A stretch of DNA of 64,000 nucleotides. Origin: an uncultured Flavobacteriaceae bacterium. GTDB lineage: Bacteria > Bacteroidota > Bacteroidia > Flavobacteriales > Flavobacteriaceae. The number at the start of each line of letters is the position of its first letter. The first letter of the stretch is position 1. The stretch lies in NCBI GenBank assembly GCA_947494715.1, contig CANLWG010000015.1, positions 1-64,000 on the forward strand, given 5' to 3'. The notes under the pieces were generated by a model, which worked only from the letters and a program-made list of their open reading frames with translations, searched no databases and was not told where the DNA came from. Below are positions 2,561-29,855 of this stretch, one piece after another. The translations under genes and the position numbers were made by a program.

Positions 2561-4357
2561 ATGACAAATGCACATTCTTTCCATATTCCTGTAATGGGAA
2601 TAGGATTTACCATAGATACACCCTTAAAAGTTTCTCAGTTCGGGATGGATTCGGTGATCTCCCTAGTGGACGATATTCTTCTCGAAAAGCTACGGAAAAT
2701 GTACTGCGAGAAGTTCGAGATCAAGTATACGGAAATCACGGAAAAAATTGATGACTTCCGGGCAAAACGAATTACTTCCTATCTTGATCTAATGCATGAA
2801 CTTGCCCAGAAGAAATTCGATGCGTTTAAAAATACAACCGCTGAGACTGCAAACGGTATTCGGGACTATTTTAATATGCTTCCGGATACTTCAAGTATAA
2901 AAAAGGAATTCAAAAAATTAACGGCGGACTATTTTAATCTTGAGGAAATCCAAAACTGGGTCAAGGAGCACATGGCCATGGGAAGTATAGATGTAAATAT
3001 TATGACCAAGGTTGATAAGGACAATTATGTAAAAACCGAAAAGCTTCCCAGTGAATATAACGATGCGCATGCCGCTTTAAGAGGGTTTGCAAATAGTAGT
3101 TTGCGTTCTTCCGTCATACTTTCGGCCGGAATGAACCCCAGGTTATACAGTTATCTGGAACAGTTTGAAGATTTTTATCCCGACGAAAATGGAAATATCA
3201 AAAAGAAAATAGTTCTAAAGGTAAGTGACTACCGTTCCGCCTTGATCCAGGGTAAATTTTTGGCCAAAAAAGGATTATGGGTATCTGAATACCGAATAGA
3301 ATCAGGACTCAATTGCGGTGGTCATGCTTTTGCAACGGACGGATACCTTATGGGGCCTATTCTAAATCAATTTAAGGAAAACAGGAATGATTTGATAAAA
3401 TCCGTTCATGAGATTCTTGTAGCTGCATTGACACAAAAAAATCGACCCGCTCCAAAAAAAGGATTTCCCCTTAAAATAACCGCCCAAGGTGGCGTGGGTA
3501 CTGCAGAGGAACATCAATTTATATTGGACCATTATAATGTGGATTCCGTCGGATGGGGCACACCTTTTCTTTTGGTGCCCGAGGCAACTACAGTTGATGA
3601 CAGCACGCGTGACAAATTAGTTGAGGCTAAAGAGGATGATCTGTATTTAAGCAATACCTCCCCTTTGGGAATTCCTTTCCATAGCCTTAAGGGCAATACC
3701 AAGGATGATGAAAAGTTCAATTTGATCAACAAAGGAAGGCCAGGCAGTTCTTGCCCTAAGAAATTTGTTGCCCTGAACAAGGATTTTACGGATAAGGGAA
3801 TTTGCATAGCATCGAGGCAATACCAGCATTTAAAATTAAAGGAACTGGATGATTTAGAATTATCCCCTGCCCAATATCAATCCAAATATGAAAAAATAGT
3901 GGAGAAGTCCTGTACCTGTGTCGGTTTGGGAACATCTGCCCTACTAGCTTATGGCTTAGACACAAAAACCGAAGGTGAGGGTGTTTCCATATGCCCAGGA
4001 CCAAGTATGGCCTATTTTTCAAAAATAATTAGCTTAAACGAAATGACCGATCACATTTACGGAAGGACCAATGTAATTTCTAGAACCGATCGCCCCAATA
4101 TGTTCATCAAGGAATTGTACATCTATATCGATTATCTCAAGGACAAAATTGAGGAAGCCAAAGAAGCGGTGACCGATCGGCAAAAAAAGTATTTGTCCAC
4201 TTTTACAAATAACCTTAAAGATGGCATCGCTTACTATCATTCGGTTTTTAATACCCTTAAAGGAAGCTTTGAAAACACTAAATCTCAAATTGTGTTTGAT
4301 TTGGATAGGGGCCTAAAGACCTTGCATCTCGTGGAAGAGGAAATAAAGGCGTTATAG
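2561..4357 (+). CDS. Large uncharacterised protein, possibly a TIM-barrel flavoprotein related to nitronate monooxygenases
   Basis: 598 aa uninterrupted ORF; motifs such as GGHAFATDGYLMGP and ITAQGGVGTAEEHQFILDHYNVDSVGWGTPF suggest an (alpha/beta)8 flavin fold; family assignment is tentative. Confidence 0.55.
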   Translation: MTNAHSFHIPVMGIGFTIDTPLKVSQFGMDSVISLVDDILLEKLRKMYCEKFEIKYTEITEKIDDFRAKRITSYLDLMHELAQKKFDAFKNTTAETANGIRDYFNMLPDTSSIKKEFKKLTADYFNLEEIQNWVKEHMAMGSIDVNIMTKVDKDNYVKTEKLPSEYNDAHAALRGFANSSLRSSVILSAGMNPRLYSYLEQFEDFYPDENGNIKKKIVLKVSDYRSALIQGKFLAKKGLWVSEYRIESGLNCGGHAFATDGYLMGPILNQFKENRNDLIKSVHEILVAALTQKNRPAPKKGFPLKITAQGGVGTAEEHQFILDHYNVDSVGWGTPFLLVPEATTVDDSTRDKLVEAKEDDLYLSNTSPLGIPFHSLKGNTKDDEKFNLINKGRPGSSCPKKFVALNKDFTDKGICIASRQYQHLKLKELDDLELSPAQYQSKYEKIVEKSCTCVGLGTSALLAYGLDTKTEGEGVSICPGPSMAYFSKIISLNEMTDHIYGRTNVISRTDRPNMFIKELYIYIDYLKDKIEEAKEAVTDRQKKYLSTFTNNLKDGIAYYHSVFNTLKGSFENTKSQIVFDLDRGLKTLHLVEEEIKAL

Positions 4358-6939: not shown

Positions 6940-6996
6940 GTGCCTAGGTTCCAAATTTTTTGGGTGCAAATTTATTTCAAATCTGCTCCGAAAAAT

Positions 6997-7010
6997 ATGA
7001 TTTTCGTCAC
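6997..7010 (-). promoter_or_regulatory. FNR/DNR-like box of the nadAB promoter
   Basis: Minus strand GTGACGAAAATCAT; -7 element TAAATTTG at 6967-6974, centre-to-centre 33 bp. Confidence 0.65.
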
Positions 7011-9846: not shown

Positions 9847-11193
9847 TTATTGCGATACCTCAACCATTTCCAAAGCCTCGTCATTAGGACGACCGTGTTT
9901 TACGAAATCGATAATATACAGGATTATCCCTGCCGTGAATAAGGATGCACAAATAATCAAAACCACAAAATGGATGCTGATTTCATTTTGTACTACCATG
10001 AAGTCCATTTTAAGTTTACGCTCCAAGTAGACTTGTGCTACCCCGGCGACCCCAAAGGCTACGGTCATACCCACCATACCAATGTTAGCTGTCCAAAAAG
10101 CGGCACGCCCCCGGGCACCATCATACAATTTTCTTCCGGTCATATTGGGCAACGAATAACTAATAATCGCAAGTACGATCATACCGTAAGCACCCCAAAA
10201 AGCCAAGTGACCGTGCATTGCAGTGACCAAAGTTCCGTGGGTATACAAATTTGTCTGGGGCAAGGTATGTGCAAAACCTAATAATCCAGCCCCAACGAAC
10301 GAAACGATAGCGGAACCCAAGGTCCAGAACAATGCTATTTTATTTGGATGTTTCTTTTCGCCTTTGCGGTACATATTTACTGCAAAAAGGGCCATTGCCA
10401 AGAATGCCAAGGGTTCCATAGCGGAAAATATTCCACCCACGATCAACCAAATTTTATTGACACCGATGTAATAATAATGATGACCAGTACCTAAAACACC
10501 TGAGAGGAAGGTAAGCCCCACGATAACATACAGCCACTTTTCAATTACCTCGCGATCCACACCGGTTAGTTTAATCAACAGGAAGGATAGAATACCACCC
10601 ATAATCAACTCCCATACACCCTCTACCCAAAGGTGAACGACCCACCAGCGAAAGAAGGAATCCATTACCTGGCTATCAAACGGCAACATACCTGGAAGAT
10701 ATAGCAATGCCGCAAACAACAATCCCATTGAAAGCACCAGCGCGGTAGTCGTTTTTCGTTTTCCTTTGAAAAGTGTTACCAAAATCAATCCCAGAAATAG
10801 TAAGACGTTCACAACTACTAAAAAATCAAGCTGTCTAGGGATTTCCAAAAATTTTCGGCCTTCCCACCAATTAAAGTGATACCCGATAATCGCCGCAACA
10901 CCCACCAATGCCAGGGAAATTAATTGTACATAAGCCAGTTTTACGCTGACCAGTTCTCGTTGGGCCTCTTCAGGAATAATATAATAGGCGGCCCCCATAA
11001 AACCGGACAATAGCCATACCACTAGCAGATTGGTATGTACTGCCCTAGCAGTATTGAAGGGGATAAAATCGTGCAGGCCATCCATTCCTATACGGGCAAA
11101 GCCCATAATAAAACCATACGTAAGCTGAAGAACTAATAGTAGCATGGAGAAGGCAAAAAACCAATAGGCTACTTTTTGTGATTTATATTTCAT
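9847..11193 (-). CDS. norB: Nitric oxide reductase catalytic subunit NorB (cNor type)
   Basis: 448 aa, multiple TM helices; VHLWVEGVWELIMGG, GTGHHYYYIG, MHGHLAFWGAYG; paired with NorC. Confidence 0.95.
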   Translation of the reverse strand: MKYKSQKVAYWFFAFSMLLLVLQLTYGFIMGFARIGMDGLHDFIPFNTARAVHTNLLVVWLLSGFMGAAYYIIPEEAQRELVSVKLAYVQLISLALVGVAAIIGYHFNWWEGRKFLEIPRQLDFLVVVNVLLFLGLILVTLFKGKRKTTTALVLSMGLLFAALLYLPGMLPFDSQVMDSFFRWWVVHLWVEGVWELIMGGILSFLLIKLTGVDREVIEKWLYVIVGLTFLSGVLGTGHHYYYIGVNKIWLIVGGIFSAMEPLAFLAMALFAVNMYRKGEKKHPNKIALFWTLGSAIVSFVGAGLLGFAHTLPQTNLYTHGTLVTAMHGHLAFWGAYGMIVLAIISYSLPNMTGRKLYDGARGRAAFWTANIGMVGMTVAFGVAGVAQVYLERKLKMDFMVVQNEISIHFVVLIICASLFTAGIILYIIDFVKHGRPNDEALEMVEVSQ

Positions 11194-11222: not shown

Positions 11223-11678
11223 TTATTCTTCCTCAGTGGCCAGAGGGTCTTCCCCTTTTGCCAAAGGGGATACAACACGGTCAAAACCGTTGAGGTCTAT
11301 ATCGTCGATCCAATCAAAAAAGGCAATCAGGTCAGCAGCTTCTTCTTCAGAAAATCCGTAAGCCACCATTTTTCGGCCGTTTGGTTCCCAAGGAATTGGG
11401 CTCATAAGAACCGCTTTTACATATCCCGGACCTCTACGATCTAAAACTTTGGTCAATTCAGGTGCATAATACCCCCCTTCTCCCAAAATAGTATGGCAAC
11501 CCATACAGTTATTGGCTTCCCATATTTTCTTTCCCCGTACTACTTGTTCGGTAATGTTCCCATAATTTGATTGATCTTGTCCTTTGCTAAAAGAATAAAT
11601 GGTCAATCCTATAAATATTAGGAATGTGACCATTGTTCCTCCAAGAAAGAAAGCACGTGCTTGTTTTTTTGATAGCAT
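11223..11678 (-). CDS. norC: Nitric oxide reductase cytochrome c subunit NorC
   Basis: N-terminal TM, CMGCH haem motif followed by TILGEGGYYAPELT. Confidence 0.95.
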   Translation of the reverse strand: MLSKKQARAFFLGGTMVTFLIFIGLTIYSFSKGQDQSNYGNITEQVVRGKKIWEANNCMGCHTILGEGGYYAPELTKVLDRRGPGYVKAVLMSPIPWEPNGRKMVAYGFSEEEAADLIAFFDWIDDIDLNGFDRVVSPLAKGEDPLATEEE

Positions 11679-11705: not shown

Positions 11706-11721
11706 AAGACCTTTTTATCTT
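11706..11721 (-). promoter_or_regulatory. Candidate Rrf2/NsrR-type operator at the norC transcription start region
   Basis: Minus strand AAGATAAAAAGGTCTT; same motif at 19546-19561 and 23565-23580. Confidence 0.45.
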
Positions 11722-11757
11722 TAATGCTAAAAATACATCTACCCTAACGGCCAGAAC

Positions 11758-11771
11758 ATGATTTTTGTCAT
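11758..11771 (-). promoter_or_regulatory. FNR/DNR-like box of the norC promoter
   Basis: Minus strand ATGACAAAAATCAT; -7-like TATTTTTA at 11728-11735, centre-to-centre 33 bp. Confidence 0.7.
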
Positions 11772-11799
11772 GAATTGAAAAAAAAGATTTTAACCGGTA

Positions 11800-12582
11800 T
11801 TAAAAATCCTTTCGTTTTGATTTTATGGCCAATCGCCAAATGGGAAGTATTGTCCAAAACAATAGTACAACAAGGGAAATCAAAAGGCCAAAGTCAGTAC
11901 CAAAGAACTTCTTAAAAACCGCTCCGGTATAGCCCAAAAGTGCAGAGATATCCAATTTCAAAAGGATAAGCGTTCTTGAAAGGTCAATAGGGTTGCACAT
12001 TGTGGCCGCCAAGGAGAACTTGTCCAACGGATATTCTTCAAAAACAATAAGAGATAGCAAAAAGAGTCCGTCGTAAATGACCGCCAAAAACAACCAAAGT
12101 AATACCGCATACCCGAAACCTTTTATCCTGTTTTCGTTGGAGAGTGCAATATTGAACGCCAATGCCGTAAAGATAAATGTCAAAAAGGCTCCAGTAACCA
12201 ATAAAAGTGTAAAGTTGAAAATGGCATCACTTTTAAAAAGCCCGTAAAGGACGAACGGAACCCCAAGGCCTAAGAACAAGCTCAGCGTCAAGGAACCGGC
12301 GACCCCAAAATATTGTCCCAAAAAGATAGTGGAACGGCGCAATGGCTGTGCCAATAACAGTTCGGTGAACTCCTTTGAATTGTAAAAATACATTACCCCA
12401 AAAATAGTCCCTATCAAGGGCACCAACACGATGATAACATTCATTAAGGTGATGACCGCTTTGGAAAGATCATTGTTTAGGAAAAGCAACACGAAGCCCA
12501 AAGCCAGGTAAAAGAGAAAATATACATAACTCCAACGGCTCCGCATCAAATCATAAAAACTGTACTTTAGGATTTTAAGCAT
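11800..12582 (-). CDS. nosY: ABC transporter permease, NosY-like
   Basis: Multi-TM ABC-2 type permease, overlaps the NosF ATPase ORF. Confidence 0.85.
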   Translation of the reverse strand: MLKILKYSFYDLMRSRWSYVYFLFYLALGFVLLFLNNDLSKAVITLMNVIIVLVPLIGTIFGVMYFYNSKEFTELLLAQPLRRSTIFLGQYFGVAGSLTLSLFLGLGVPFVLYGLFKSDAIFNFTLLLVTGAFLTFIFTALAFNIALSNENRIKGFGYAVLLWLFLAVIYDGLFLLSLIVFEEYPLDKFSLAATMCNPIDLSRTLILLKLDISALLGYTGAVFKKFFGTDFGLLISLVVLLFWTILPIWRLAIKSKRKDF

Positions 12583-13285
12583 CTGTGGTTTGCATTGCTA
12601 TGGCCGCTATGGCATGTTCAACATCGACTTGATCGGTCTTTTGTTTCAATTCTTCAATACTTCCCTTAAAATAGACCTTGCCTTCCAGTAGGTAAACAAT
12701 CTCATCCGCAACTTCCTCTACAAATTGCATAATGTGCGAGGTTATCAATAGGGTTTTTCCTTTTTCTTTTTCTTCCTGTATCAATTTCTTTAACCGAATC
12801 AAGGATCCCGGATCCAAGCCCGTGGTGGGTTCGTCCAAAATCATCAAAGGGCTGTTGAACATAAAAGTAAGTACGATGTTGACCTTTTGCTTAGTACCCC
12901 CGGAAAGTGTACCTAACTTCTTGTCCAAAAAAGGTTCCAGCCCAAACAAAGTAATCAGCTTATTTTCCTCACTGGGCTTTTGCCTTAGGTCCTTTATCAT
13001 TCGTATCAATTCCCCTACCCTAATGTTACTTGGAAAATTCGCTATCTGTGGCAAATAATCTATTTCCTTGCGATATCTCCACCCATTTTTGATATTGGTA
13101 TCGAGTACATTTATAGTTCCGGTATTTGGGATTACCATACCCAAAATACTTTTGATAAGTGTAGTTTTCCCTGATCCATTAGGCCCCAAAATTGCATAAA
13201 TGCCACCACTCTTAATGGTCAATTCCACCCCGGAGAGTACTTGGTTCTTTCCAAATCGTTTATGTAGATTGTCTATCTGTATCAT
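12575..13285 (-). CDS. nosF: ABC transporter ATP-binding protein, NosF-like
   Basis: Walker A AILGPNGSGKTTLIKSILG, signature LSGGTKQK, LMILDEPTTGLD. Confidence 0.9.
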   Translation of the reverse strand: MIQIDNLHKRFGKNQVLSGVELTIKSGGIYAILGPNGSGKTTLIKSILGMVIPNTGTINVLDTNIKNGWRYRKEIDYLPQIANFPSNIRVGELIRMIKDLRQKPSEENKLITLFGLEPFLDKKLGTLSGGTKQKVNIVLTFMFNSPLMILDEPTTGLDPGSLIRLKKLIQEEKEKGKTLLITSHIMQFVEEVADEIVYLLEGKVYFKGSIEELKQKTDQVDVEHAIAAIAMQTTDA

Positions 13286-14532
13286 TTCACTTTTCGCATC
13301 AAAGGATTGGAATCCATTAAATTATCCGGTGTAAAAACCGGTGAAACCTTTTCTGAAAAATCAATGATGTCCATAAAAAGACTTCGTAATAATACAATGG
13401 TTTCCGGTGTTCTATTCACAATATACGAGAATAGTTTCACTGGCCTGTACGGTACATCACCAATACCATTCTTATCCAAATCGTAACCTGTATAACTACT
13501 CCAATAATTCTGTTCGAATACATTATCGTTCACCTTGCTATTGTAGGAAATATCAAAGGAATTATATAAAAAATTATTGTTTTTGAAGGTATTGGTATAG
13601 CAAGCTCCCCTTACTTTTACGGCCCATCCATTATTGATAAAATCATTACCCTTATAGTTGATCCGATTGGAACCTTCTATATTGATACCGATAGTATTTT
13701 CCTCAAAAGTGTTCCCAATAATTTCGGCATCATTAATTTCCTTTAGGAGCATTCCAAAGGAAGCCGTACCCCAGTTTTTTCGAAACGTGTTGTTCTGCAT
13801 CCTGATATTTTTGGAAAACATCACGGCCACTCCCGCTCCGTTGTTCTCAAATGTGTTGTTGGTGTAGATATCATCATTGGAGAACATAAAATGTAGCCCA
13901 TATCGTATGTTATCGGAACTTCTATTGTTGTTGATCGTAACATTGTCGGAAAACTCTAGATAAATACCATCACGGGTGCCTTGTACAATATTCCGGTCTA
14001 CCTGAACATGGTGTGAGTACCATAATTGGATGCCATTTCCCGAGTTGTATTCATCCACGGCATCGCCAATAATCTTGTTGTGGTACACCTTACCTTTATT
14101 CGATTTCTCCAAATAAATGCCAAAGAAAAGCTTTTCAAGCACCAAATGCTGTATCAGGAAATTTTCGCTCTTTACTACTCGAACAGCGGCATAATCCGTG
14201 GTGTAGCTGGTTCCAACGTTGATAATAAAAAGACCATCCACGGTCACATTGTCCGAAACAATGGTAATAATCTCACCCTTTTCCTCGCCATCGATTACAG
14301 GATAGTCCTCTCCGAGAAGGGTCAAGGGTTTATCTATAACGATATTGTATTCTTTGTAGGTTCCTTTTTTGATCAAAAGGGTGTCGTATTCCACAGCCAT
14401 GGCTATTCCCTGCTTAATAGAAGATACTTTGCATGTAGAACAGATGGTAATGGTCCTACCCATCAAAAATTGACTACCCCCAATCAAGATGAGAAAAACT
14501 AATAACTTGCTATGTGATAATATCTGGTTCAT
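13282..14532 (-). CDS. nosD: NosD-like periplasmic copper-processing protein (right-handed beta-helix repeats)
   Basis: Signal peptide; many N.. repeat turns (NNTFENNGAGVAVMFSKNIRMQNNTF); adjacent nosF and nosY. Confidence 0.9.
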   Translation of the reverse strand: MNQILSHSKLLVFLILIGGSQFLMGRTITICSTCKVSSIKQGIAMAVEYDTLLIKKGTYKEYNIVIDKPLTLLGEDYPVIDGEEKGEIITIVSDNVTVDGLFIINVGTSYTTDYAAVRVVKSENFLIQHLVLEKLFFGIYLEKSNKGKVYHNKIIGDAVDEYNSGNGIQLWYSHHVQVDRNIVQGTRDGIYLEFSDNVTINNNRSSDNIRYGLHFMFSNDDIYTNNTFENNGAGVAVMFSKNIRMQNNTFRKNWGTASFGMLLKEINDAEIIGNTFEENTIGINIEGSNRINYKGNDFINNGWAVKVRGACYTNTFKNNNFLYNSFDISYNSKVNDNVFEQNYWSSYTGYDLDKNGIGDVPYRPVKLFSYIVNRTPETIVLLRSLFMDIIDFSEKVSPVFTPDNLMDSNPLMRKVK

Positions 14533-14963
14533 AAAAGTCCCCCACTTCTTGCACTAAATCCCGTAAAAACAAAAAGAACGGCAATTATGGTTACTGCTAC
14601 GATATGTATTGCCAATAGTTTTAAACGCCTTTTGGGAATCAAAAAAAACCGGGCGTGTATTGCCAGAGCCAATGTAAATATCAAAAGAATAAATTTAAAC
14701 ACCAGATGTCTTGTATAATGGTCGGCCATATCCATCTTAAAGAAATCCGGGGCATAATGGACGGTCATATAAACACCGGTAACGACCAAAATGAGCAGGG
14801 CCGGCATTCCAATGGGTTCATACTTGGACTCGAAATTTTCGATAATCCCAAAGTTTCTTTGTTTTAAGGCTTTTGGCAAAAACCCCAGAGTTAGCACCAA
14901 ATGACCTCCTGTCCATATCGTTGCTGCAACAATATGGATGAAAATAACGATTTTAAGGAACAT
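14529..14963 (-). CDS. Membrane protein, CopD-like family
   Basis: 144 aa, 4 TM, IVAATIWTGGHLVLTLGFLPKAL. Confidence 0.65.
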   Translation of the reverse strand: MFLKIVIFIHIVAATIWTGGHLVLTLGFLPKALKQRNFGIIENFESKYEPIGMPALLILVVTGVYMTVHYAPDFFKMDMADHYTRHLVFKFILLIFTLALAIHARFFLIPKRRLKLLAIHIVAVTIIAVLFVFTGFSARSGGLL

Positions 14964-14964
14964 C

Positions 14965-15258
14965 TTAGCGGATTATCAGAAATTTGGAATTTTCGTTTGC
15001 CTTTACACAATGTGGAGTTTCTCGGGGAAAGGAAAAATACTCCTGTTTCGTTAAGTGAAAGTTATTCTGGTCGATGTGAAAATGAATATCCCCTTCCAAA
15101 ACTACCAATAGCGCGTCCGTAGGAGATGTGTGCTCCGGAAAAATTGCACCACTTTCAAGACTAATACTCAATATCTCCGCCGCACCGTTCTTGGAAAGCT
15201 TTTGTATTTGCAGTTTATCGTAAGGTTGAGTTTTGATTTCTTCTCTAATTTCGTACAT
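14965..15258 (-). CDS. Small cupin-domain protein
   Basis: SGAIFPEHTSPTDALLVVLEGDIHFHID...FPRETPHCVKA cupin motifs. Confidence 0.8.
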   Translation of the reverse strand: MYEIREEIKTQPYDKLQIQKLSKNGAAEILSISLESGAIFPEHTSPTDALLVVLEGDIHFHIDQNNFHLTKQEYFSFPRETPHCVKANENSKFLIIR

Positions 15259-15261
15259 CTT

Positions 15262-15696
15262 TTATGGCTTAAAACGGTTCAACAATTCATCCCAAGAATA
15301 CAAATCACCACCGTTGCCCTCCTTGGCATTTTTTGCATCGGCATCGTTACCAAAAGCTGTTAGGAACTCTCCCATTGGGCTGGGTATGCCCTGACTAATT
15401 AGATAGGTGGCCTTCTTGGCATCGATCAATTCACCCGGTTCGGAATAATCATTTACAAGAAACAGGGCCACCGTACCTTTATCTATCTCCTTTAGGTGGT
15501 TCATCATACATTCCACCGCATCAAACTTAAAGGTCTTCCCCTTCCTTGTAACCATCTGTGCGGCGTGTTGCCGATCAACAATGGTCATACTGCAAAAATG
15601 ACATCCGTCCGAACCGTATTCAATGGGTTGGGGCTTTACATTACAGGCGACCAACCATAATGCCAAAAAACCAAAAAGAAGACCGCGTGATTGCAT
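15262..15696 (-). CDS. nosL: NosL copper chaperone lipoprotein (start trimmed from 15774)
   Basis: MQSRGLLFGFLALWLVAC lipobox; CHFCSMTIVDRQHAAQ NosL motif. Confidence 0.9.
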   Translation of the reverse strand: MQSRGLLFGFLALWLVACNVKPQPIEYGSDGCHFCSMTIVDRQHAAQMVTRKGKTFKFDAVECMMNHLKEIDKGTVALFLVNDYSEPGELIDAKKATYLISQGIPSPMGEFLTAFGNDADAKNAKEGNGGDLYSWDELLNRFKP

Positions 15697-15698
15697 AA

Positions 15699-16292
15699 CT
15701 ATGCTTTTAAGGTTTTCTCCTTCTTCCCAAAAAAATAGGCAACCAGTCCCAAGGCGATTCCTCCACCCAAACAATAGGCTCCCAATTGGGGATAGGAATG
15801 TGCCGTAAAGTTCAAAATATCCTTGGAACCAAAGAATGGCGGCTGGAATCCCATTACGGAACCATCCGGATTGGTAAACTTCATAATGGCCTTGGGGTCT
15901 AGGTCATGGCCATAATCATGCTCCCAGATATAAAAATCAATTAAGCCTGCAGTACTTACCATGACCATCATAATGAACCAATACAGAAACCATTTATGGT
16001 TTGCTTTCAATGCAATGATCAAACCGATGACCGTAGTAATGATTATACCTATTGGGAATATCTTAAACTCCGGAATGGCATCTGGTATGTACTTCATCCC
16101 TACGTAATGGTTCATCAAATTTATATTCTTTATATCATGCGGATTGGCATCGGCAAAATCGTTTATGTAGATATACATCCCCAAAGGAGTTGGATATTGC
16201 GGTGCCTCCAAGGTAATTTTCCAAAGTGGAAATACAAAAAGTAACAAAGGCAATAGGGCGGCCAAAACCATTACAATCCGTGATTTTTTCAT
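15699..16292 (-). CDS. Membrane protein of the nos cluster
   Basis: 197 aa multi-TM ORF between nosZ and nosL. Confidence 0.75.
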   Translation of the reverse strand: MKKSRIVMVLAALLPLLLFVFPLWKITLEAPQYPTPLGMYIYINDFADANPHDIKNINLMNHYVGMKYIPDAIPEFKIFPIGIIITTVIGLIIALKANHKWFLYWFIMMVMVSTAGLIDFYIWEHDYGHDLDPKAIMKFTNPDGSVMGFQPPFFGSKDILNFTAHSYPQLGAYCLGGGIALGLVAYFFGKKEKTLKA

Positions 16293-16321
16293 TTCTACAA
16301 TACTTTACTCGGTTAAAAAGC

Positions 16322-16343
16322 GGGCCGGCCATATGGCCGGCCC
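16322..16343 (-). terminator. Intrinsic-terminator-like hairpin directly downstream of nosZ
   Basis: Minus strand GGGCCGGCC-ATAT-GGCCGGCCC-GCTTTTTAA: perfect 9-bp GC stem, 4-nt loop, T-tract. Confidence 0.8.
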
Positions 16344-16377
16344 TGCCTAAGTTTGAAAAATTAATCTTTAAGGGTAA

Positions 16378-18333
16378 TTAGTCTCCCAATGACCACGAAA
16401 GGTCAATGTTTGAGTTAGCTGGGGATACCCTTACATACCCCTGCATTTCTTGGTGTAAAGCGGAACAGAAATCCGTACAATAAAATGGCCATACACCTGG
16501 TTGTTTGGGCTCCCATACAAAGGTTTCCGTCTGTCCGGGCATAATCAATAATTCGGAAGTGTTGGCACCGATTATGCTTACACCGTGTGGTACATCATAA
16601 TCCTGTTCCATATTGGTAACGTGGAAGTATACCTTATCCCCTACTTTTATCCCTTCAATATTATCAGGATTAAAGTGACTTCGTATCATGGACATGTAAA
16701 TATGGACTTCCTTACCGTTGCGTTCCACCCTTACATCGGCATCGGAGGTTATACCGTATTCATGCTTGTTTTCCTTTAAATCGAAAATCTTTTTGGACCG
16801 TGCCTTTACAATATCCGCAGCAATACCTGCGGCATAATGAGGTTCTCCCACTGTAGGGAAATCCAATAAGAGTTCCATCTTCTCTCCGGAAATGTCATAT
16901 AGTTGTGCCGATTGTGTTACTTCGGGACCAGTAGGCAAATATCTGTCCTTGGTAATCTTGTTCATGGCCAACACGTATTTGCCAAAGGGCTTTCTAGAAT
17001 TTCCACCAGGAATCATTAAGTGGCCTACGGAGTAGAAACAGGGTTGTCTATCCACTACTTCCCAAGTGCCCAATTTCCATTTGACCACTTCTGAAGAAAT
17101 AAAGAAAGTGGTATAGGCATTTCCTTGACCGTCAAATTCAGTGTGCAATGGCCCAAGACCTGGTTGGCTTACCGTGCCTGCCAAAACGTCCTCGAATTTC
17201 AAGATGGGTATACCATAGGCGTCACCGTCATATTTCTTTCCCTCGATAGCATCCAACATTTTTGTAAAGGAATGAACAGTTAAATCAGCGGAGAGTTTAC
17301 CGTTACCTACAATATATTCTCCAGATGGATCCACATCGCAGCCGTGAGGTGATTTAGGTGTAGGCAAGAAAAAAACAGCACCGGGTACGTCCGTTGGGTT
17401 TACCACAAGCACTTCTTTTTTCATAGTAGAAGTAGCGGTATGCGTTTCTTCATTATATACATTATGTGCATAGTTGGAGGGCATTTTGGTACCTCCGCCA
17501 TTGTTCACATATTCCTCTATCTTTTTCCAATTGACCGCAGCAATAAAGTCTTTGTCATTCTGTGAAGCATTTACCTCAAGTAATGTACTGGCTTCCTCGG
17601 AGTTGTACGTGGTAAAAAAGAACCATCCGTGAGATTTGCCACGACCCGGGTGTGATAGGTCATAGTCAAACCCGGGCATCATCAACTGAAACTTGATATC
17701 CATGCCACCATCCTCTGGGTCAACACTGATGAACGTCAAAGCACCTTTAAAATTTCCCTTGTATTCATTGATGGGCATATCCCTTTGCGGTACGGGAACA
17801 GAAAACCGAGTACCCGCCACCACATATTCTGTATTCTCCGTGACAAACGAAGAACTGTGGTTACCAGCACTATTGGGAATCTCAATAATCTCCGTTGTTT
17901 CAAAAACGGTTAAATCTATTTTGGCGATACGGGGTGTATTATTCCCATTTATAAATACATAACGGCCATCCAATTCCCCGTTGGTCTGTGAAATATCGGG
18001 GTGGTGGGAATCGTCCCAAGGTACAAATCCAAAGGAAGTATTGAGCATGGGTTTGGTTTCCTCATTATAGCCCCATGCTTTTTCCGCATCTTGGGAGAAA
18101 ACAGGAATTACTTTGAAAAGTCTTCCCGATGGCAATCCGTAAACGGACATTTGTCCACTAAATCCTCCAGAAACAAAGGCATAGAACTCATCATGTTCCC
18201 CAGGAGCAACGTATACTTTTTCGGCGGCATTGGAAGTCAACGCCCCGCTATTACCCTTTTTTTGATCCCCACAACTGGTGAAGACCAAGGCGAGTCCAAA
18301 TAATACCAGCATTGGATTCTTAAACTTTCTCAT
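16378..18333 (-). CDS. nosZ: Nitrous oxide reductase, Sec/lipoprotein-type (clade II-like)
   Basis: Lipobox ALVFTSCGD, no Tat motif; C-terminal cupredoxin CuA FYCTDFCSALHQEMQGYV; seven-bladed N-terminal region with SPHGCDVDPSGEYIV. Confidence 0.95.
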   Translation of the reverse strand: MRKFKNPMLVLFGLALVFTSCGDQKKGNSGALTSNAAEKVYVAPGEHDEFYAFVSGGFSGQMSVYGLPSGRLFKVIPVFSQDAEKAWGYNEETKPMLNTSFGFVPWDDSHHPDISQTNGELDGRYVFINGNNTPRIAKIDLTVFETTEIIEIPNSAGNHSSSFVTENTEYVVAGTRFSVPVPQRDMPINEYKGNFKGALTFISVDPEDGGMDIKFQLMMPGFDYDLSHPGRGKSHGWFFFTTYNSEEASTLLEVNASQNDKDFIAAVNWKKIEEYVNNGGGTKMPSNYAHNVYNEETHTATSTMKKEVLVVNPTDVPGAVFFLPTPKSPHGCDVDPSGEYIVGNGKLSADLTVHSFTKMLDAIEGKKYDGDAYGIPILKFEDVLAGTVSQPGLGPLHTEFDGQGNAYTTFFISSEVVKWKLGTWEVVDRQPCFYSVGHLMIPGGNSRKPFGKYVLAMNKITKDRYLPTGPEVTQSAQLYDISGEKMELLLDFPTVGEPHYAAGIAADIVKARSKKIFDLKENKHEYGITSDADVRVERNGKEVHIYMSMIRSHFNPDNIEGIKVGDKVYFHVTNMEQDYDVPHGVSIIGANTSELLIMPGQTETFVWEPKQPGVWPFYCTDFCSALHQEMQGYVRVSPANSNIDLSWSLGD

Positions 18334-18365
18334 TGTTGTTGTTTTTATGTTATTTCGATTTTCAA

Positions 18366-18953
18366 TTATTCTCCGGAGGGCGGTAAGATTACTTTATCCA
18401 CTACGTGCACTATACCGTTTCCGGCAGGAATGCTGGCAACGATTTTTGCACCACCCACGTAAACGTCCTCTCCTTTGACTTCTACAGTTGTATTTTGGTT
18501 GTTGGCCTGACCCAATTTTTTAAACTTCTTTAAAAAGTCCTTGCTATAGTTGCCAGGGGTTACGTGGTGTTTTAAAATATTGGCCAACGCATTTTTATTC
18601 TCAGGTTTTAGCAAATCTTCCACAGTACCGGGTGGAAGTGCATCAAAAGCTGCATTGGTAGGGGCAAATACCATTAATGGTCCGGCATTTACCAGGGCAT
18701 TCTCTAAATCTGCCGCTTGAACTGCAGCCACAAGAGTTGTGTGATCAGGGGACCCTATGGCAATGTTAAGTACGTTGGGTGTTGATTCGTCATCTTTAAT
18801 AAAGGCCTGACCCTGTTTTTTCACCTCCCCGGTTTCTACTTTTTCAGTTTGGGAAGTCATCGTTTCGGTTTTGGTCTCGTTTTTACAGCTGGATAAAAAA
18901 AGCAGCATGCAAAAACAGCCGACCAACAATTTAAGGTTGATAGTTGTTTTCAT
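18366..18953 (-). CDS. Fasciclin (FAS1) domain lipoprotein
   Basis: LVGCFCMLLFLSSCKN lipobox; LMVFAPTNAAFDALPPGTVEDLL and VHVVDKVILPP. Confidence 0.9.
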   Translation of the reverse strand: MKTTINLKLLVGCFCMLLFLSSCKNETKTETMTSQTEKVETGEVKKQGQAFIKDDESTPNVLNIAIGSPDHTTLVAAVQAADLENALVNAGPLMVFAPTNAAFDALPPGTVEDLLKPENKNALANILKHHVTPGNYSKDFLKKFKKLGQANNQNTTVEVKGEDVYVGGAKIVASIPAGNGIVHVVDKVILPPSGE

Positions 18954-18960
18954 TATAAAT

Positions 18961-19467
18961 CTACTTTAAGGTTCTAAAATATTCCAGTACAGCCCTTGCC
19001 TGATCTTCCGTAAGGCTCTGATTGGCCATAGGTGATCCATTGAACTCTACCAGAAGGTCTTTGGCCAAGGGATCTTCCTTTACCATGACATCCGGATTAA
19101 GAATCATGTTCATAATCCATTCCGGAGTTCTTCTTTCCAATATTCCGTTAGGTGCGGGCCCAATAAACTTTTTGCCTACCCGGTGACAGGCCATACACAT
19201 TTGGTTAAATACTTCTTCACCCTGAGTGACCATGGCTTGATCTATTTCTGCATCCAAGGTTATAGAATTAATGGGGCCTACACCTTTGGAGGTCAAATCT
19301 ATCCGTTCCGAAGCCTTAACCTGATTTGTAGTAGGCGTCTCCGCTTTTTTCTCGGTGGTGGCTTTTTTTCTTTCTATACTAAAACCATCCTTTTTCTCTT
19401 CCTTTCCTCCACAGCTTAACAGAAGTAGCGTGAATATTACTAGGAGACTATTGTTGACTTTTCCCAT
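18961..19467 (-). CDS. Monohaem c-type cytochrome lipoprotein
   Basis: VIFTLLLLSCGG lipobox; CMACHRVGKKFIGPAPNGI; first gene of the nos operon. Confidence 0.9.
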   Translation of the reverse strand: MGKVNNSLLVIFTLLLLSCGGKEEKKDGFSIERKKATTEKKAETPTTNQVKASERIDLTSKGVGPINSITLDAEIDQAMVTQGEEVFNQMCMACHRVGKKFIGPAPNGILERRTPEWIMNMILNPDVMVKEDPLAKDLLVEFNGSPMANQSLTEDQARAVLEYFRTLK

Positions 19468-19527
19468 ACCCTTAATTGTTTGTTATTGATTACGCAGCAA
19501 AAATAGGGGTGGTGAAAAGTATAAAAC

Positions 19528-19541
19528 ATGATATTAATCAT
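19528..19541. promoter_or_regulatory. FNR/DNR-like box in the cytochrome c / rrf2 divergent intergenic region
   Basis: ATGATATTAATCAT perfect palindrome arms; minus-strand -7 TATTTTTG at 19498-19505, centre-to-centre 33 bp. Confidence 0.75.
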
Positions 19542-19545
19542 ATTT

Positions 19546-19561
19546 AAGATAAAAAAGTCTT
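19546..19561 (+). promoter_or_regulatory. Candidate Rrf2/NsrR-type operator upstream of the rrf2 gene
   Basis: AAGATAAAAAAGTCTT, upstream of plus-strand -7 TATATTTG at 19570-19577. Confidence 0.45.
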
Positions 19562-19593
19562 TTATTCTCTATATTTGTAAAAAGTTTAGAGAA

Positions 19594-20025
19594 ATGCTAT
19601 CGAACTCTTCAAAATATGCCCTGAAAGCCGTACTTTATTTGGCGGTACATTCCACTATGGAAAAGAAAATATTGGCCAAGGATATCAGCAAGCCCATTAA
19701 TGTTCCCCGGGCCTATATAGCCAAGATACTTCAGGAACTTTCAAGACATAATATAGTTTCGTCCATGCGCGGTCCTGGAGGGGGATTCTATCTGAACGAG
19801 GAAAACAAAAAAACACCCCTTATTGATATTATCAGCCTAATAGATGGTGATAACAGATTAACTTCCTGTGTACTCAGTTTACACAAGTGTGATAACGAAA
19901 ACCCGTGCCCTATGCACCATCTTGTGGACGATACGAAAGCAAGTTTTGTAAAAAAATTGAAAGAGACCTCCGTGGAAGACCTTATATCCGATATCCGGTC
20001 CGGAAAGTCATTTTTACCCATTTAA
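19594..20025 (+). CDS. Rrf2-family transcriptional regulator (NsrR-like context)
   Basis: MLSNSSKYALKAVLYLAVHS...RAYIAKILQELSRHNIVSSMRGPGGGFYL with three Cys (SCVLSLHKCDNENPCPMH). Confidence 0.9.
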   Translation: MLSNSSKYALKAVLYLAVHSTMEKKILAKDISKPINVPRAYIAKILQELSRHNIVSSMRGPGGGFYLNEENKKTPLIDIISLIDGDNRLTSCVLSLHKCDNENPCPMHHLVDDTKASFVKKLKETSVEDLISDIRSGKSFLPI

Positions 20026-20032
20026 AAACCAA

Positions 20033-20062
20033 AAAAGACCACCTTTTTCAAGATGGTCTTTT
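20033..20062. terminator. Bidirectional intrinsic terminator after rrf2
   Basis: AAAAGACCA-N12-TGGTCTTTT between two convergent genes. Confidence 0.75.
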
Positions 20063-20092
20063 GAGCAAAAACAACTACAACCAAAAGTATAA

Positions 20093-20950
20093 TTAAAATT
20101 CTATCTCAAAGAACAGACTACTGGATTCGTTTTCTTCAGTAACATCCTCTCCCTTCAATACCTCATCGCCATCATTCAACAGCTTTAGGTTAATTTTCCA
20201 ATAGCCCGTCATGGTCAATGACAATTTTCCACTGTACATTTTTGATGCAGAATCATAGGTCAAATCTTCATTATTCGGAGAACCGTGGTTTCCCATACCG
20301 GGCATACGAGGATCGATCGTTATCTTATAATCCTCTACTGCAGGAAAGGTCATCATGTTTTCCATTTTAAAGAGTACTGCCGAGAAATCGTTTACGGCGA
20401 CTTCCGGTTTTATTGGCATCATGGCCAAAACATAACGGGTTTCATCTGTTCCCATAAAAACACTTACTCTTTTTTTACCGTCCGAGGGGGCTTTAACCTC
20501 AATACGTTCAGTAGCATTATAGGTTTGTCCATTAATGGTATATTCCAAGTTCAGCTCCCAATACTCGTCTGCATTTCCGGGCATTTGAAAAATGCTAAAT
20601 CCTTTATAAACAGAGGCGTTCTCTGTCTTGGTGACTTCAGACTTAGGACAGGAGTGCATCATTTCCGTCATGTGCATTACGGGGTTCCAAGAAATAGTGG
20701 CATCGGATACGTAACTCTCGCTTGCCTCATCTTTAATTCGGATGAACAGTTCGTTATAGCCGATTGTAAATTGCTCTTGTTCGGAATATAGTTCAATGCT
20801 ATGATTATTGGCCTTCACGGCCTTTAGCATTGTATACTCGGCAAGCGGATTCTCCTCCTCAATGGGTATAGGATCATCCGTATCATCGGTACAGGAGATA
20901 AAACTCACAGTAAGAAATAGTGTTGCTAAAAGATATTTTATTGTTTTCAT
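20093..20950 (-). CDS. Lipoprotein with Met/His/Cys-rich segments, putative copper-binding partner of the TonB receptor
   Basis: LTVSFISCTDD lipobox; NPVMHMTEMMHSCPK and DPRMPGMGNHG. Confidence 0.7.
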   Translation of the reverse strand: MKTIKYLLATLFLTVSFISCTDDTDDPIPIEEENPLAEYTMLKAVKANNHSIELYSEQEQFTIGYNELFIRIKDEASESYVSDATISWNPVMHMTEMMHSCPKSEVTKTENASVYKGFSIFQMPGNADEYWELNLEYTINGQTYNATERIEVKAPSDGKKRVSVFMGTDETRYVLAMMPIKPEVAVNDFSAVLFKMENMMTFPAVEDYKITIDPRMPGMGNHGSPNNEDLTYDSASKMYSGKLSLTMTGYWKINLKLLNDGDEVLKGEDVTEENESSSLFFEIEF

Positions 20951-20970
20951 AATCAGAGTTTTAATTGTTA

Positions 20971-23040
20971 TTAATTAATGGCATACGAAACGGTCATAAA
21001 AAAGTTACGTCCCATGCGGGGGATGTTATTCCAGTCCGTATAAGTGGAATAGAGTTCATCAAAAATGTTTTCTACCCCTGCTTTTACATAAACATCATCG
21101 TTGTTAATGGAAAATGATTTTCCCAACGATAAAGAGAATACGGTGTACGCATCTGTTCGGTCTTCACCAAATTCCGGATTAAAATTCACCTGGTCCGCCG
21201 CACCCCGCATCGTCAATGATCCCGAAAATTTACCTTGGGTGTACTGCAACATGGAATTATACGTAAACGGACTTATGAATGGCAGATTACGCCCGTCCTG
21301 ATCCGTACCTCGGTGATAGGAGACCAATCCGGTCCAAGTGAATTCCGGAGTAATTTGATACTTGGTATCCAAGGAGATATTATACAAATTGGCATATTCC
21401 AGATTCTTATAAATCTTTACCCCTTCTGCCCCAATGGTCATTACACTTAAGGCAGGATTTACCTCCCCAACGATAAAGTCCATTGTGTGGAAGTAGTTCC
21501 CTTCCAAACTAAAATTCAATTTTTCGATAGGCACCGATATTTTTGTATTCACCTCGATAGCTTTTTCATTTCTTAAATCGGGGTCGCCCACATAATCGTG
21601 ATTGTCAAAGCTGTTGAACAGATAAAATCCAAAACCTTCGGAAACCGATGGAGCCCTATCTCCGTAGGAGAGCCCACCGTCCAAATGAACTGACTTTAGT
21701 TTTTTATGATATCGTGCCGAAAAACTTTTTAGAAATCGGGTCTGTCGCCGAGCCATTTCAGGATAGAAAATCCGGAGGCTGTTGAGTCCCAGTTCATCGG
21801 CCACATTGAAGCCTTGCACCGCCAATCTGGTGGATAGTTTTAAGGAACTTTCCTTGAAGTCAATTACATCCTCTGCATAAAAACCATTGTTCAGGGTGCG
21901 GACATCAGGCCAAGTAAGCATAAACATTTCACGCTCATTGGGATTGTTGGGATACATAGTCATTTCGGCAAGCGAACGATTATAAAACCCATCCAGTTTC
22001 AACAAGAATTGGTGGTTATCCCGTTTTAGGGTGGCTTGGGAAAAATATCCATAAGTGTCACTCCACCCCGGCATATCCATTCGAATAGGAACATCGGGCC
22101 TTTGGCTATCATCCATAATATGGGTAATGGAATTGGCATATACCTTGGTTTCCCAGTTTTTAAAATCACCTATGAAATCCGTTTGTATCCAACTGACGGA
22201 ACCTATAAAGGCCCGTGCCAAAGAAACATCCATGGGCAAGGCGGGATACCCAACATCCCGGGCCTCATCAAAAATGAAACTGGCCAACAGTTTTTGGTCT
22301 TCGGAAACCTTGTAGCCCGCGTTGACCGAAAGGTTGTACTTTTCAAATTGGGAAAAGGCGACCTCTTGGCCACCACCGGCAACATAATTCTCGGCCTTAC
22401 GGTAGATAATATCGGTATCCACATAGAACTGCTCATCCGAATAGTTTAGTTCCCCACCAATGATTTGTGATGAATTATTGGTCTCGCCACCGGTTTCAAT
22501 AGAGCCTCCCCATCCATCAGGTCTAAAATTGCTCTTTTCCAAACGTAGGTCAATAGCACCTCCAATGGTAGCTCCGTGTTCCGCACCTTGTTGACCACAG
22601 GCCACATGTATATCGGACAGATTGGAAACATCGACATAGGAGGTTATGGGGTCCATTCTATCCGTGCAGGCACCAAAAATGCGCATCCCGTCAATAGTTA
22701 TGGACAGGCGTTCCGTAGTCATATCGTTCAGTACCGGCTCCCAGGCATAGGCTCCCCTTTTTATCATGTTCACTTTTTTGGAGGACTCCAAATACTGATC
22801 CAATGTCGAGAGTGGTTTATGGTGGGAATTATGCTCCAACGTTCTTTTGTAAGAGGAGATGACGATTACCTCATTTAAGTCGATAGGAAGTATAGAATCC
22901 TTTACCATTACCACCTTTGGCTCTTGGGAAGTGCCTTTCCAATGAAACACCAGAGTGCACAACACAACAAGAAACAAGGCTTTACCTTTTAGACCCATCG
23001 CCCTAGAGCGGTATGGCCTACCATCAAATATGGTTTTCAT
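20971..23040 (-). CDS. TonB-dependent outer membrane receptor, possibly for copper
   Basis: Plug domain (ISSYKRTLEHN...IDGMRIFGACTDRMDPITSYVDVSNLSDIHV) and beta-barrel ending in FMTVSYAIN; next to the nos cluster. Confidence 0.85.
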   Translation of the reverse strand: MKTIFDGRPYRSRAMGLKGKALFLVVLCTLVFHWKGTSQEPKVVMVKDSILPIDLNEVIVISSYKRTLEHNSHHKPLSTLDQYLESSKKVNMIKRGAYAWEPVLNDMTTERLSITIDGMRIFGACTDRMDPITSYVDVSNLSDIHVACGQQGAEHGATIGGAIDLRLEKSNFRPDGWGGSIETGGETNNSSQIIGGELNYSDEQFYVDTDIIYRKAENYVAGGGQEVAFSQFEKYNLSVNAGYKVSEDQKLLASFIFDEARDVGYPALPMDVSLARAFIGSVSWIQTDFIGDFKNWETKVYANSITHIMDDSQRPDVPIRMDMPGWSDTYGYFSQATLKRDNHQFLLKLDGFYNRSLAEMTMYPNNPNEREMFMLTWPDVRTLNNGFYAEDVIDFKESSLKLSTRLAVQGFNVADELGLNSLRIFYPEMARRQTRFLKSFSARYHKKLKSVHLDGGLSYGDRAPSVSEGFGFYLFNSFDNHDYVGDPDLRNEKAIEVNTKISVPIEKLNFSLEGNYFHTMDFIVGEVNPALSVMTIGAEGVKIYKNLEYANLYNISLDTKYQITPEFTWTGLVSYHRGTDQDGRNLPFISPFTYNSMLQYTQGKFSGSLTMRGAADQVNFNPEFGEDRTDAYTVFSLSLGKSFSINNDDVYVKAGVENIFDELYSTYTDWNNIPRMGRNFFMTVSYAIN

Positions 23041-23133
23041 CTGTTTATATTTTGGACTAATTCAAAAGTTTAGGGGTACAAGCTTTGTGGACGAGCTTTT
23101 CATCCATAGCGAATATTTGTACTACAAATTGAA

Positions 23134-23511
23134 TTAGGCCAACTCGGGTGGCTGGGAAATATCGGAAGTAAAAGGATTTGAAATTAGAACCTTAACAAAT
23201 CGTAAATTCTCCATTTTGGTCTGTGAAAGGAATACTTGTAAATCCATTTGACGCAAGGATTGGAAAAAAACAATGTGCTGAATTTCGGTTTTTGCCTGAT
23301 CCTCTCCGAAAGGATTGCTTTTGTTTTGTTCCGCCTCCTTGGCCAATTGCTTGGAAAGGTAGCATTTCCCGTCGCACTTCAATTGCGGCCTATCCTTATT
23401 TTCACAGAGCACGTTTACGATGTAATCATAGTTCATAACATACTCAGCAATGGGCCAGAGCGGCTTCACGAGCATGAGCATTGCTACAAAAAGGATTACA
23501 TAGCTTTTCAT
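23134..23511 (-). CDS. Small membrane-anchored Cys-motif protein in the TonB receptor operon
   Basis: 125 aa; N-terminal hydrophobic segment, VLCENKDRPQLKCDGKCYLSKQLAKE. Confidence 0.7.
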   Translation of the reverse strand: MKSYVILFVAMLMLVKPLWPIAEYVMNYDYIVNVLCENKDRPQLKCDGKCYLSKQLAKEAEQNKSNPFGEDQAKTEIQHIVFFQSLRQMDLQVFLSQTKMENLRFVKVLISNPFTSDISQPPELA

Positions 23512-23546
23512 GGAGACAAATGTAGGCCCGCCCCTCGGAGGAAAAC

Positions 23547-23560
23547 ATGATAAAAATCAT
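23547..23560 (-). promoter_or_regulatory. FNR/DNR-like box of the copper-receptor-like operon
   Basis: ATGATAAAAATCAT; minus-strand -7 TACATTTG at 23517-23524, centre-to-centre 33 bp. Confidence 0.75.
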
Positions 23561-23564
23561 ATTA

Positions 23565-23580
23565 AGGATAAAAAGGTCTT
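23565..23580 (+). promoter_or_regulatory. Candidate Rrf2/NsrR-type operator
   Basis: AGGATAAAAAGGTCTT; part of a 39-bp block aligning without gaps to 19528-19566. Confidence 0.45.
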
Positions 23581-29791: not shown

Positions 29792-29841
29792 GGATGTAAT
29801 TTGATTAATTACAAACTTAGTTTCCGCCTGCAAAAAAAAAT

Positions 29842-29855
29842 ATGATAATTATCAG
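29842..29855 (-). promoter_or_regulatory. FNR/DNR-like box of hemN
   Basis: Minus strand CTGATAATTATCAT; -7 TAAGTTTG at 29812-29819, centre-to-centre 33 bp. Confidence 0.75.

Follow-up and report, generated by a model that had tools for sequence, protein, structure and literature searches.

What sets the nitric oxide and nitrous oxide reductase genes of a marine flavobacterium apart from its general anaerobic genes? The question is raised by a stretch of 64,000 nt (hereafter, the window) of contig CANLWG010000015.1, from the 5.97-Mb genome of an uncultured Flavobacteriaceae bacterium (GCA_947494715.1). A first-pass annotation of the window had proposed that a motif shared by three promoters, ARGAT-N6-GTCTT, is the operator of an Rrf2-family regulator. 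Bacteria with clade II nosZ, Flavobacteriaceae included, consume N2O, and their regulation has, to our knowledge, hardly been described.

The motif matches the window exactly three times, at the promoters of norC, of the divergent nos operon and rrf2, and of a copper-receptor operon; the positions and strands given in the annotation were exact (Table 1). Three copies were reached in 1 of 100 dinucleotide shuffles of the window (mean 0.32). Across the genome this loose form is mostly noise, with 34 matches versus 24 for a reversed control. When narrowed to the A-tract form, ARGAYAAAAANRTCYT, the pattern matches perfectly at just three places in the 5.97 Mb, and all of them lie inside the window. 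The operator is a 16-bp palindrome with the consensus ARGAY-N6-RTCYT and an A-rich core. As the annotation had it, the nadA and hemN promoters of the window lack the motif (best matches with three and two mismatches, respectively), and a search of the window found no copy near ORF 2561.

Table 1. Operators, FNR-like boxes and genes of the three operons and the rrf2 locus (window positions).
Feature	Sequence	Position	Strand	Remark
Operator at norC	AAGATAAAAAGGTCTT	11706..11721	-	Centre about +10 from the start predicted from the FNR box
Operator common to the divergent nos operon (-) and rrf2 (+)	AAGATAAAAAAGTCTT	19546..19561	+	About -60.5 for nos; between -33 and -7 for rrf2
Operator at copper-receptor operon	AGGATAAAAAGGTCTT	23565..23580	+	About -60.5 for the minus-strand operon
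FNR-like box, norCBQD promoter	TGACAAAAATCA	11759..11770	-	Class II spacing to TAnnTTT -7 box
FNR-like box, nos promoter	TGATTAATATCA	19529..19540	-	Centre 19 bp from operator centre
FNR-like box, copper operon promoter	TGATTTTTATCA	23548..23559		Promoter of minus-strand operon
Candidate rrf2 -7 box	TATATTTG	19570..19577	+	From sequence; TAnnTTTG-like boxes recur in orthologues
norC		11223-11678	-	Cytochrome c NO reductase; operon predicted to be under the operator
norB		9847-11193	-	Cytochrome c NO reductase; same operon as norC
nos operon, first genes		16378..19467	-	
Cytochrome c gene		18961-19467	-	nos operon
Fasciclin-domain protein		18366-18953	-	nos operon
nosZ		16378-18333	-	Sec-type, clade II
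rrf2		19594..20025	+	Rrf2-family regulator, 143 aa; predicted binder of the three operators
Copper-linked operon		20093..23511	-	
125-aa protein		23134-23511	-	Copper operon
TonB-dependent receptor		20971-23040	-	Resembles copper receptors
YtkA-like protein		20093-20950	-	Copper operon

TAnnTTTG is the -7 consensus of Bacteroidota, and all transcription starts given here were placed from this consensus together with the FNR-like box. The distance from the centre of the FNR-like box to the start of the TAnnTTT[GA] box is 29 nt in 93 of 94 nos promoters, in 16/16 copper promoters and in 15 of the 17 norC promoters that have the box, the spacing of a class II activator centred at about -41.5. Upstream of the FNR centre, the operator centre follows at 18-20 bp in 89/94 nos promoters and at 18-21 bp in 16/16 copper promoters; in four nos promoters the distance is 27-29 bp, about one helical turn longer. 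The genome has two copies of this composite of FNR-like box and operator, one at nos/rrf2 and one at the copper operon; the 19-bp spacing within it is absent from the first-pass annotation. At norC the order is reversed: the operator lies downstream of the predicted start, at +7.5 to +20.5 in the orthologues of 19 genomes. The window copy spans about +2 to +17, overlapping or directly following the start, in agreement with the annotation. A repressor operator overlying the start would suit norC; it does not describe nos or the copper operon, whose sites stand upstream of the FNR-like box.

Two gene starts at these promoters deserve comment. The longest rrf2 reading frame begins at 19528, inside the promoter elements; conservation points to 19594 as the start, and the ATG at 19528 is an unlikely one. 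The predicted start of the copper operon (23511-23524) falls at or adjoins the annotated ATG at 23511, so its message may be leaderless or this ATG misassigned.

The operator is selective among FNR-type promoters. The class II pattern TGAY-N4-RTCA-N23-TAnnTTT has 45 matches in the genome versus 1 in the reversed control, and only 3 of these 45 promoters (nor, nos and copper) carry the operator, which is absent from the other 42. This supports the annotation's suggestion that the motif marks off a small number of nitrogen-oxide genes within the wider anaerobic set, nadA and hemN being excluded. One-mismatch operator matches among the other FNR-type promoters look like chance and were rejected; a single case was inspected, L287, and it lies ahead of a gene for a TonB-like protein. 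Within the window the class II matches lie at 6968-7009, 11729-11770, 19499-19540, 23518-23559 and 29813-29854. The roughly 45 matches amount to a large FNR-like class II regulon, spread over contigs C1, C5, C7 and others, with clusters at C1:483-623 kb and C5:160-205 kb. A further FNR-like box, TGACAAAAGTCA (2421-2432), is found upstream of ORF 2561-4357, without an operator and off the class II spacing.

Conservation was counted in the 200 bp upstream of all fetched loci, using the strict motif ARGAY-N6-RTCYT and dinucleotide shuffles as a control. The operator was present upstream of nos in 86/109 loci, norC in 22/31, the copper-receptor operon in 15/19 and rrf2 in 98/141, whereas the shuffles averaged 0 to 0.53; the conservation upstream of orthologous norC and nos genes, on which the annotation had staked its proposal, is thus borne out. 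A control region internal to nosZ had no operator (0/109), and hemN carried the FNR-like box in 27/27 loci and the operator in 1/27. The nadA gene scored positive in 5/11 loci; in two of these loci (L148 and L162) it is divergent from rrf2, and nadA was rejected there as a target, the site being that of the adjoining rrf2 itself.

Orthologues of the window Rrf2 were found across the family, including 80 named loci, with Ulvibacterium marinum as the nearest named relative (94%). In these 80 loci the region between rrf2 and nos holds an exact ARGAY-N6-RTCYT in 65 and a one-mismatch version in 13. With few exceptions the register is constant, the operator following ATGAY-N4-RTCAT by 4 bp. The norC operator stands just past the -7 box in most of the 27 family genomes with norB, and at the head of the operon in four genomes with a distal norCB. 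G016 was the sole genome without a norC site among those examined; L117 and L119 have variants with one or two mismatches. In L182-L185, norCB comes after three genes whose lengths (about 486, 257 and 239 codons) resemble those of a NosDFY-type set and which share its FNR box and operator. Outside Flavobacteriaceae, the exact composite matched 2 genomes among 148 sampled over the order, so in its exact form it is nearly confined to this family. A-tracts are frequent in these AT-rich promoters, but a chance similarity of A-rich promoter sequence has practically no probability and is already refuted at the sequence level, since conservation far exceeds the shuffles and the composite has 88 matches in 79/301 genomes versus 3 for the reversed pattern.

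The link between the operator and Rrf2 is well supported at the level of sequence, because candidate autogenous sites, co-loss with the regulator and the tracking of the arms with Rrf2 subfamily all point to it. Cys-triad Rrf2 proteins of three groups have sites of the operator type at their own promoters, the nor-linked group with less regularity; a distant Rrf2 of the window genome (L001) lacks the operator at its own promoter. Six nosZ genomes have no Cys-triad Rrf2 (G016, G031, G079, G095, G125 and G139), and in all of them the nos operator is missing, while the FNR box is kept in 4/6; G016 and G095 each have one Rrf2 without the Cys triad. Among nosZ genomes with a Cys-triad Rrf2, the operator stands beside the FNR box in 53/63 (co-loss of operator and regulator, Fisher p of about 7e-5, ignoring shared ancestry). 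The remaining 10/63 were scored without a site beside the FNR box; G078 and G146 have the site and no FNR match. The composite is present in G059, an 80% complete assembly in which no Rrf2 was detected.

The arms of the operator differ between Rrf2 groups. The operator of the MFSKACEYGI Rrf2 clade reads [AC]GGAY-N6-RTCC[TG] and that of the nos-linked group ARGAY-N6-RTCTT, a difference with p of about 1e-10 when shared ancestry is ignored. In genomes that have only the MFSKACEYGI clade, the arms of the nos operator itself shift to GG/CC (mean 1.28 vs 0.35, p = 4e-5, again ignoring ancestry). Members of this second Rrf2 clade (MFSK.CEYGI...) are found widely in Flavobacteriaceae (L144, L149, L166, L181, L229 and L238-L254); the autogenous palindrome of the clade has a consensus of about [AC]GGATAAATTTGTCC[TG], and nos is among the clade's candidate targets.

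The site could instead be the palindrome of another regulator, a second CRP-family or an unrelated protein, or an UP-element of FNR-type promoters, with Rrf2 as a mere neighbour. The tight spacing of the composite to the FNR box would suit such a view. It is nonetheless very unlikely: the norC site follows the start and keeps no constant distance from the FNR box, nearly all FNR-type promoters lack the operator, and the site occurs at promoters of several Rrf2 subfamilies, is missing from L001 and has arms that follow the Rrf2 clade. Family-wide conservation, autogenous sites, co-loss with Cys-triad Rrf2 and restriction to 3/45 FNR-like promoters support the annotation's proposal of an Rrf2 operator. 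Autoregulation as its only role was rejected, because the nos composite persists in seven genomes that have no rrf2 beside it (L188-L191, L193, L197 and L199). The copper operon also carries the operator without an rrf2.

The protein belongs to the Rrf2 superfamily (PF02082, 100.9 bits, cut-off 30; TIGR00738, 106 bits, cut-off 73.3), and C92, C99, C105 and H108 are invariant in 19 orthologues, giving it the three cysteines of Fe-S Rrf2 regulators. Its scores against the NsrR (NF008240, 45.5 bits, cut-off 182) and IscR (TIGR02010, 73.1 bits, cut-off 207.55) equivalog models are far below the cut-offs. In Streptomyces coelicolor NsrR, Asp8 is a ligand of the cluster; the profile match to 5n07 begins at query residue 6 and chain residue 7, which places an invariant Lys7 at this position. 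An AlphaFold model (mean pLDDT 92.5) has RsrR, NsrR, CymR and IscR as its closest structures. RsrR of Streptomyces venezuelae (6hsd, 6y45) is the best PDB neighbour by both structure and sequence, with the same fold and about 25% identity over the aligned region. IscR shares the Rrf2 fold, the three cysteines and a histidine three residues after the last of them, but the predicted targets here are genes of nitrogen-oxide respiration.

The annotation had also seen in the arms a kinship with proteobacterial NsrR sites, and this did not hold. The published NsrR consensus is gATGyAT-N5-ATrCATc (PMC1274295), unlike the ARGAY-N6-RTCYT with an A-rich core found here, and for this reason the window Rrf2 should not be called NsrR. 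The NsrR regulon of Proteobacteria and Bacillus resembles the present system in that an Rrf2-family regulator is predicted to gate NO-reductase genes, and enterobacterial hcp has its FNR box upstream and its NsrR site downstream, in the same order as norC (PMC1274295); it differs in that the nos and copper sites stand upstream of the FNR box. In denitrification promoters with DNR/FNR boxes, nor and nos are likewise preceded by a TTGATnnnnATCAA-type box (PMC1274295); the promoters described here combine it with a second operator of the Rrf2 type.

We consider it quite likely that the three copies are sites of the dimeric Fe-S Rrf2 protein encoded at 19594-20025, with FNR-like activation, Rrf2 repression and relief by NO. 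An FNR-like activator at -41.5 would provide the anaerobic 'on' state, and cluster-loaded Rrf2 would repress until NO, or a related signal that damages Fe-S clusters, destroys its cluster. At nor, Rrf2 bound at about +10 would block initiation or promoter clearance, and the site within the rrf2 promoter would allow self-repression; the operator positions at both genes suit a repressor. The nos and copper-operon sites abut the FNR box. Rrf2 bound there would repress either because it covers DNA required by the polymerase alpha-CTD upstream of a class II activator or because it collides with that activator.

Two other readings keep the operator and the regulator. In the first, Rrf2 would act in both directions, as a repressor at nor and rrf2 and as a co-activator at nos and copper, where it would touch polymerase or the FNR-like protein from -60.5. 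This position is near the classic class I activator position, and the near-invariant spacing to the FNR box, with four exceptions about one helical turn further away, suggests protein contact. Dual action is rather unlikely all the same: at rrf2 the same site stands inside the promoter in the manner of a repressor, and where Rrf2 and operator have been lost, the nos promoter and its FNR box are often still present (4/6), a pattern easier to reconcile with a repressor than with an obligatory co-activator. This survival of FNR-only nos promoters makes repression at nos more likely than co-activation.

In the second, which we regard as somewhat improbable to a similar degree, the signal would be oxygen, Fe-S supply, redox state or copper stress rather than NO. 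The higher score against IscR than NsrR, both far below cut-off, the redox sensor RsrR among the structural neighbours and the copper-uptake operon among the targets are in its favour. Against it, NO and N2O reductases are the most constant targets, and two members of the FNR set, hemN and nadA, are not among them. That NO is the signal we infer from the gene set only. It is also conceivable, if doubtful, that the Fe-S Rrf2 and the FNR-like protein, 19 bp apart, interact directly, so that Rrf2 would repress nor and would either assist or oppose the activator at nos and copper uptake, and that control of nos has changed hands between two Rrf2 subfamilies whose operators diverged.

The adjacency of Rrf2 and nosZ is already known: an Rrf2 gene beside clade II nosZ was noted on metagenome scaffolds of CFB-group bacteria with the Rrf2 of Maribacter HTCC2170 as query (PMC6264515), and the accessible part of that report mentions no operator or targets. 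No earlier description of the operator was found in the open-licence literature, which yielded no Rrf2/NsrR operator, target list or FNR-Rrf2 composite for Bacteroidota. The present analysis provides a candidate operator, a regulator gene and a list of three target operons, ties copper uptake to N2O reduction, and offers a sequence test for genomes that place nor and nos under the same sensor. The operator is very probably where the adjoining iron-sulphur (Rrf2) sensor binds, timing the last steps of denitrification.
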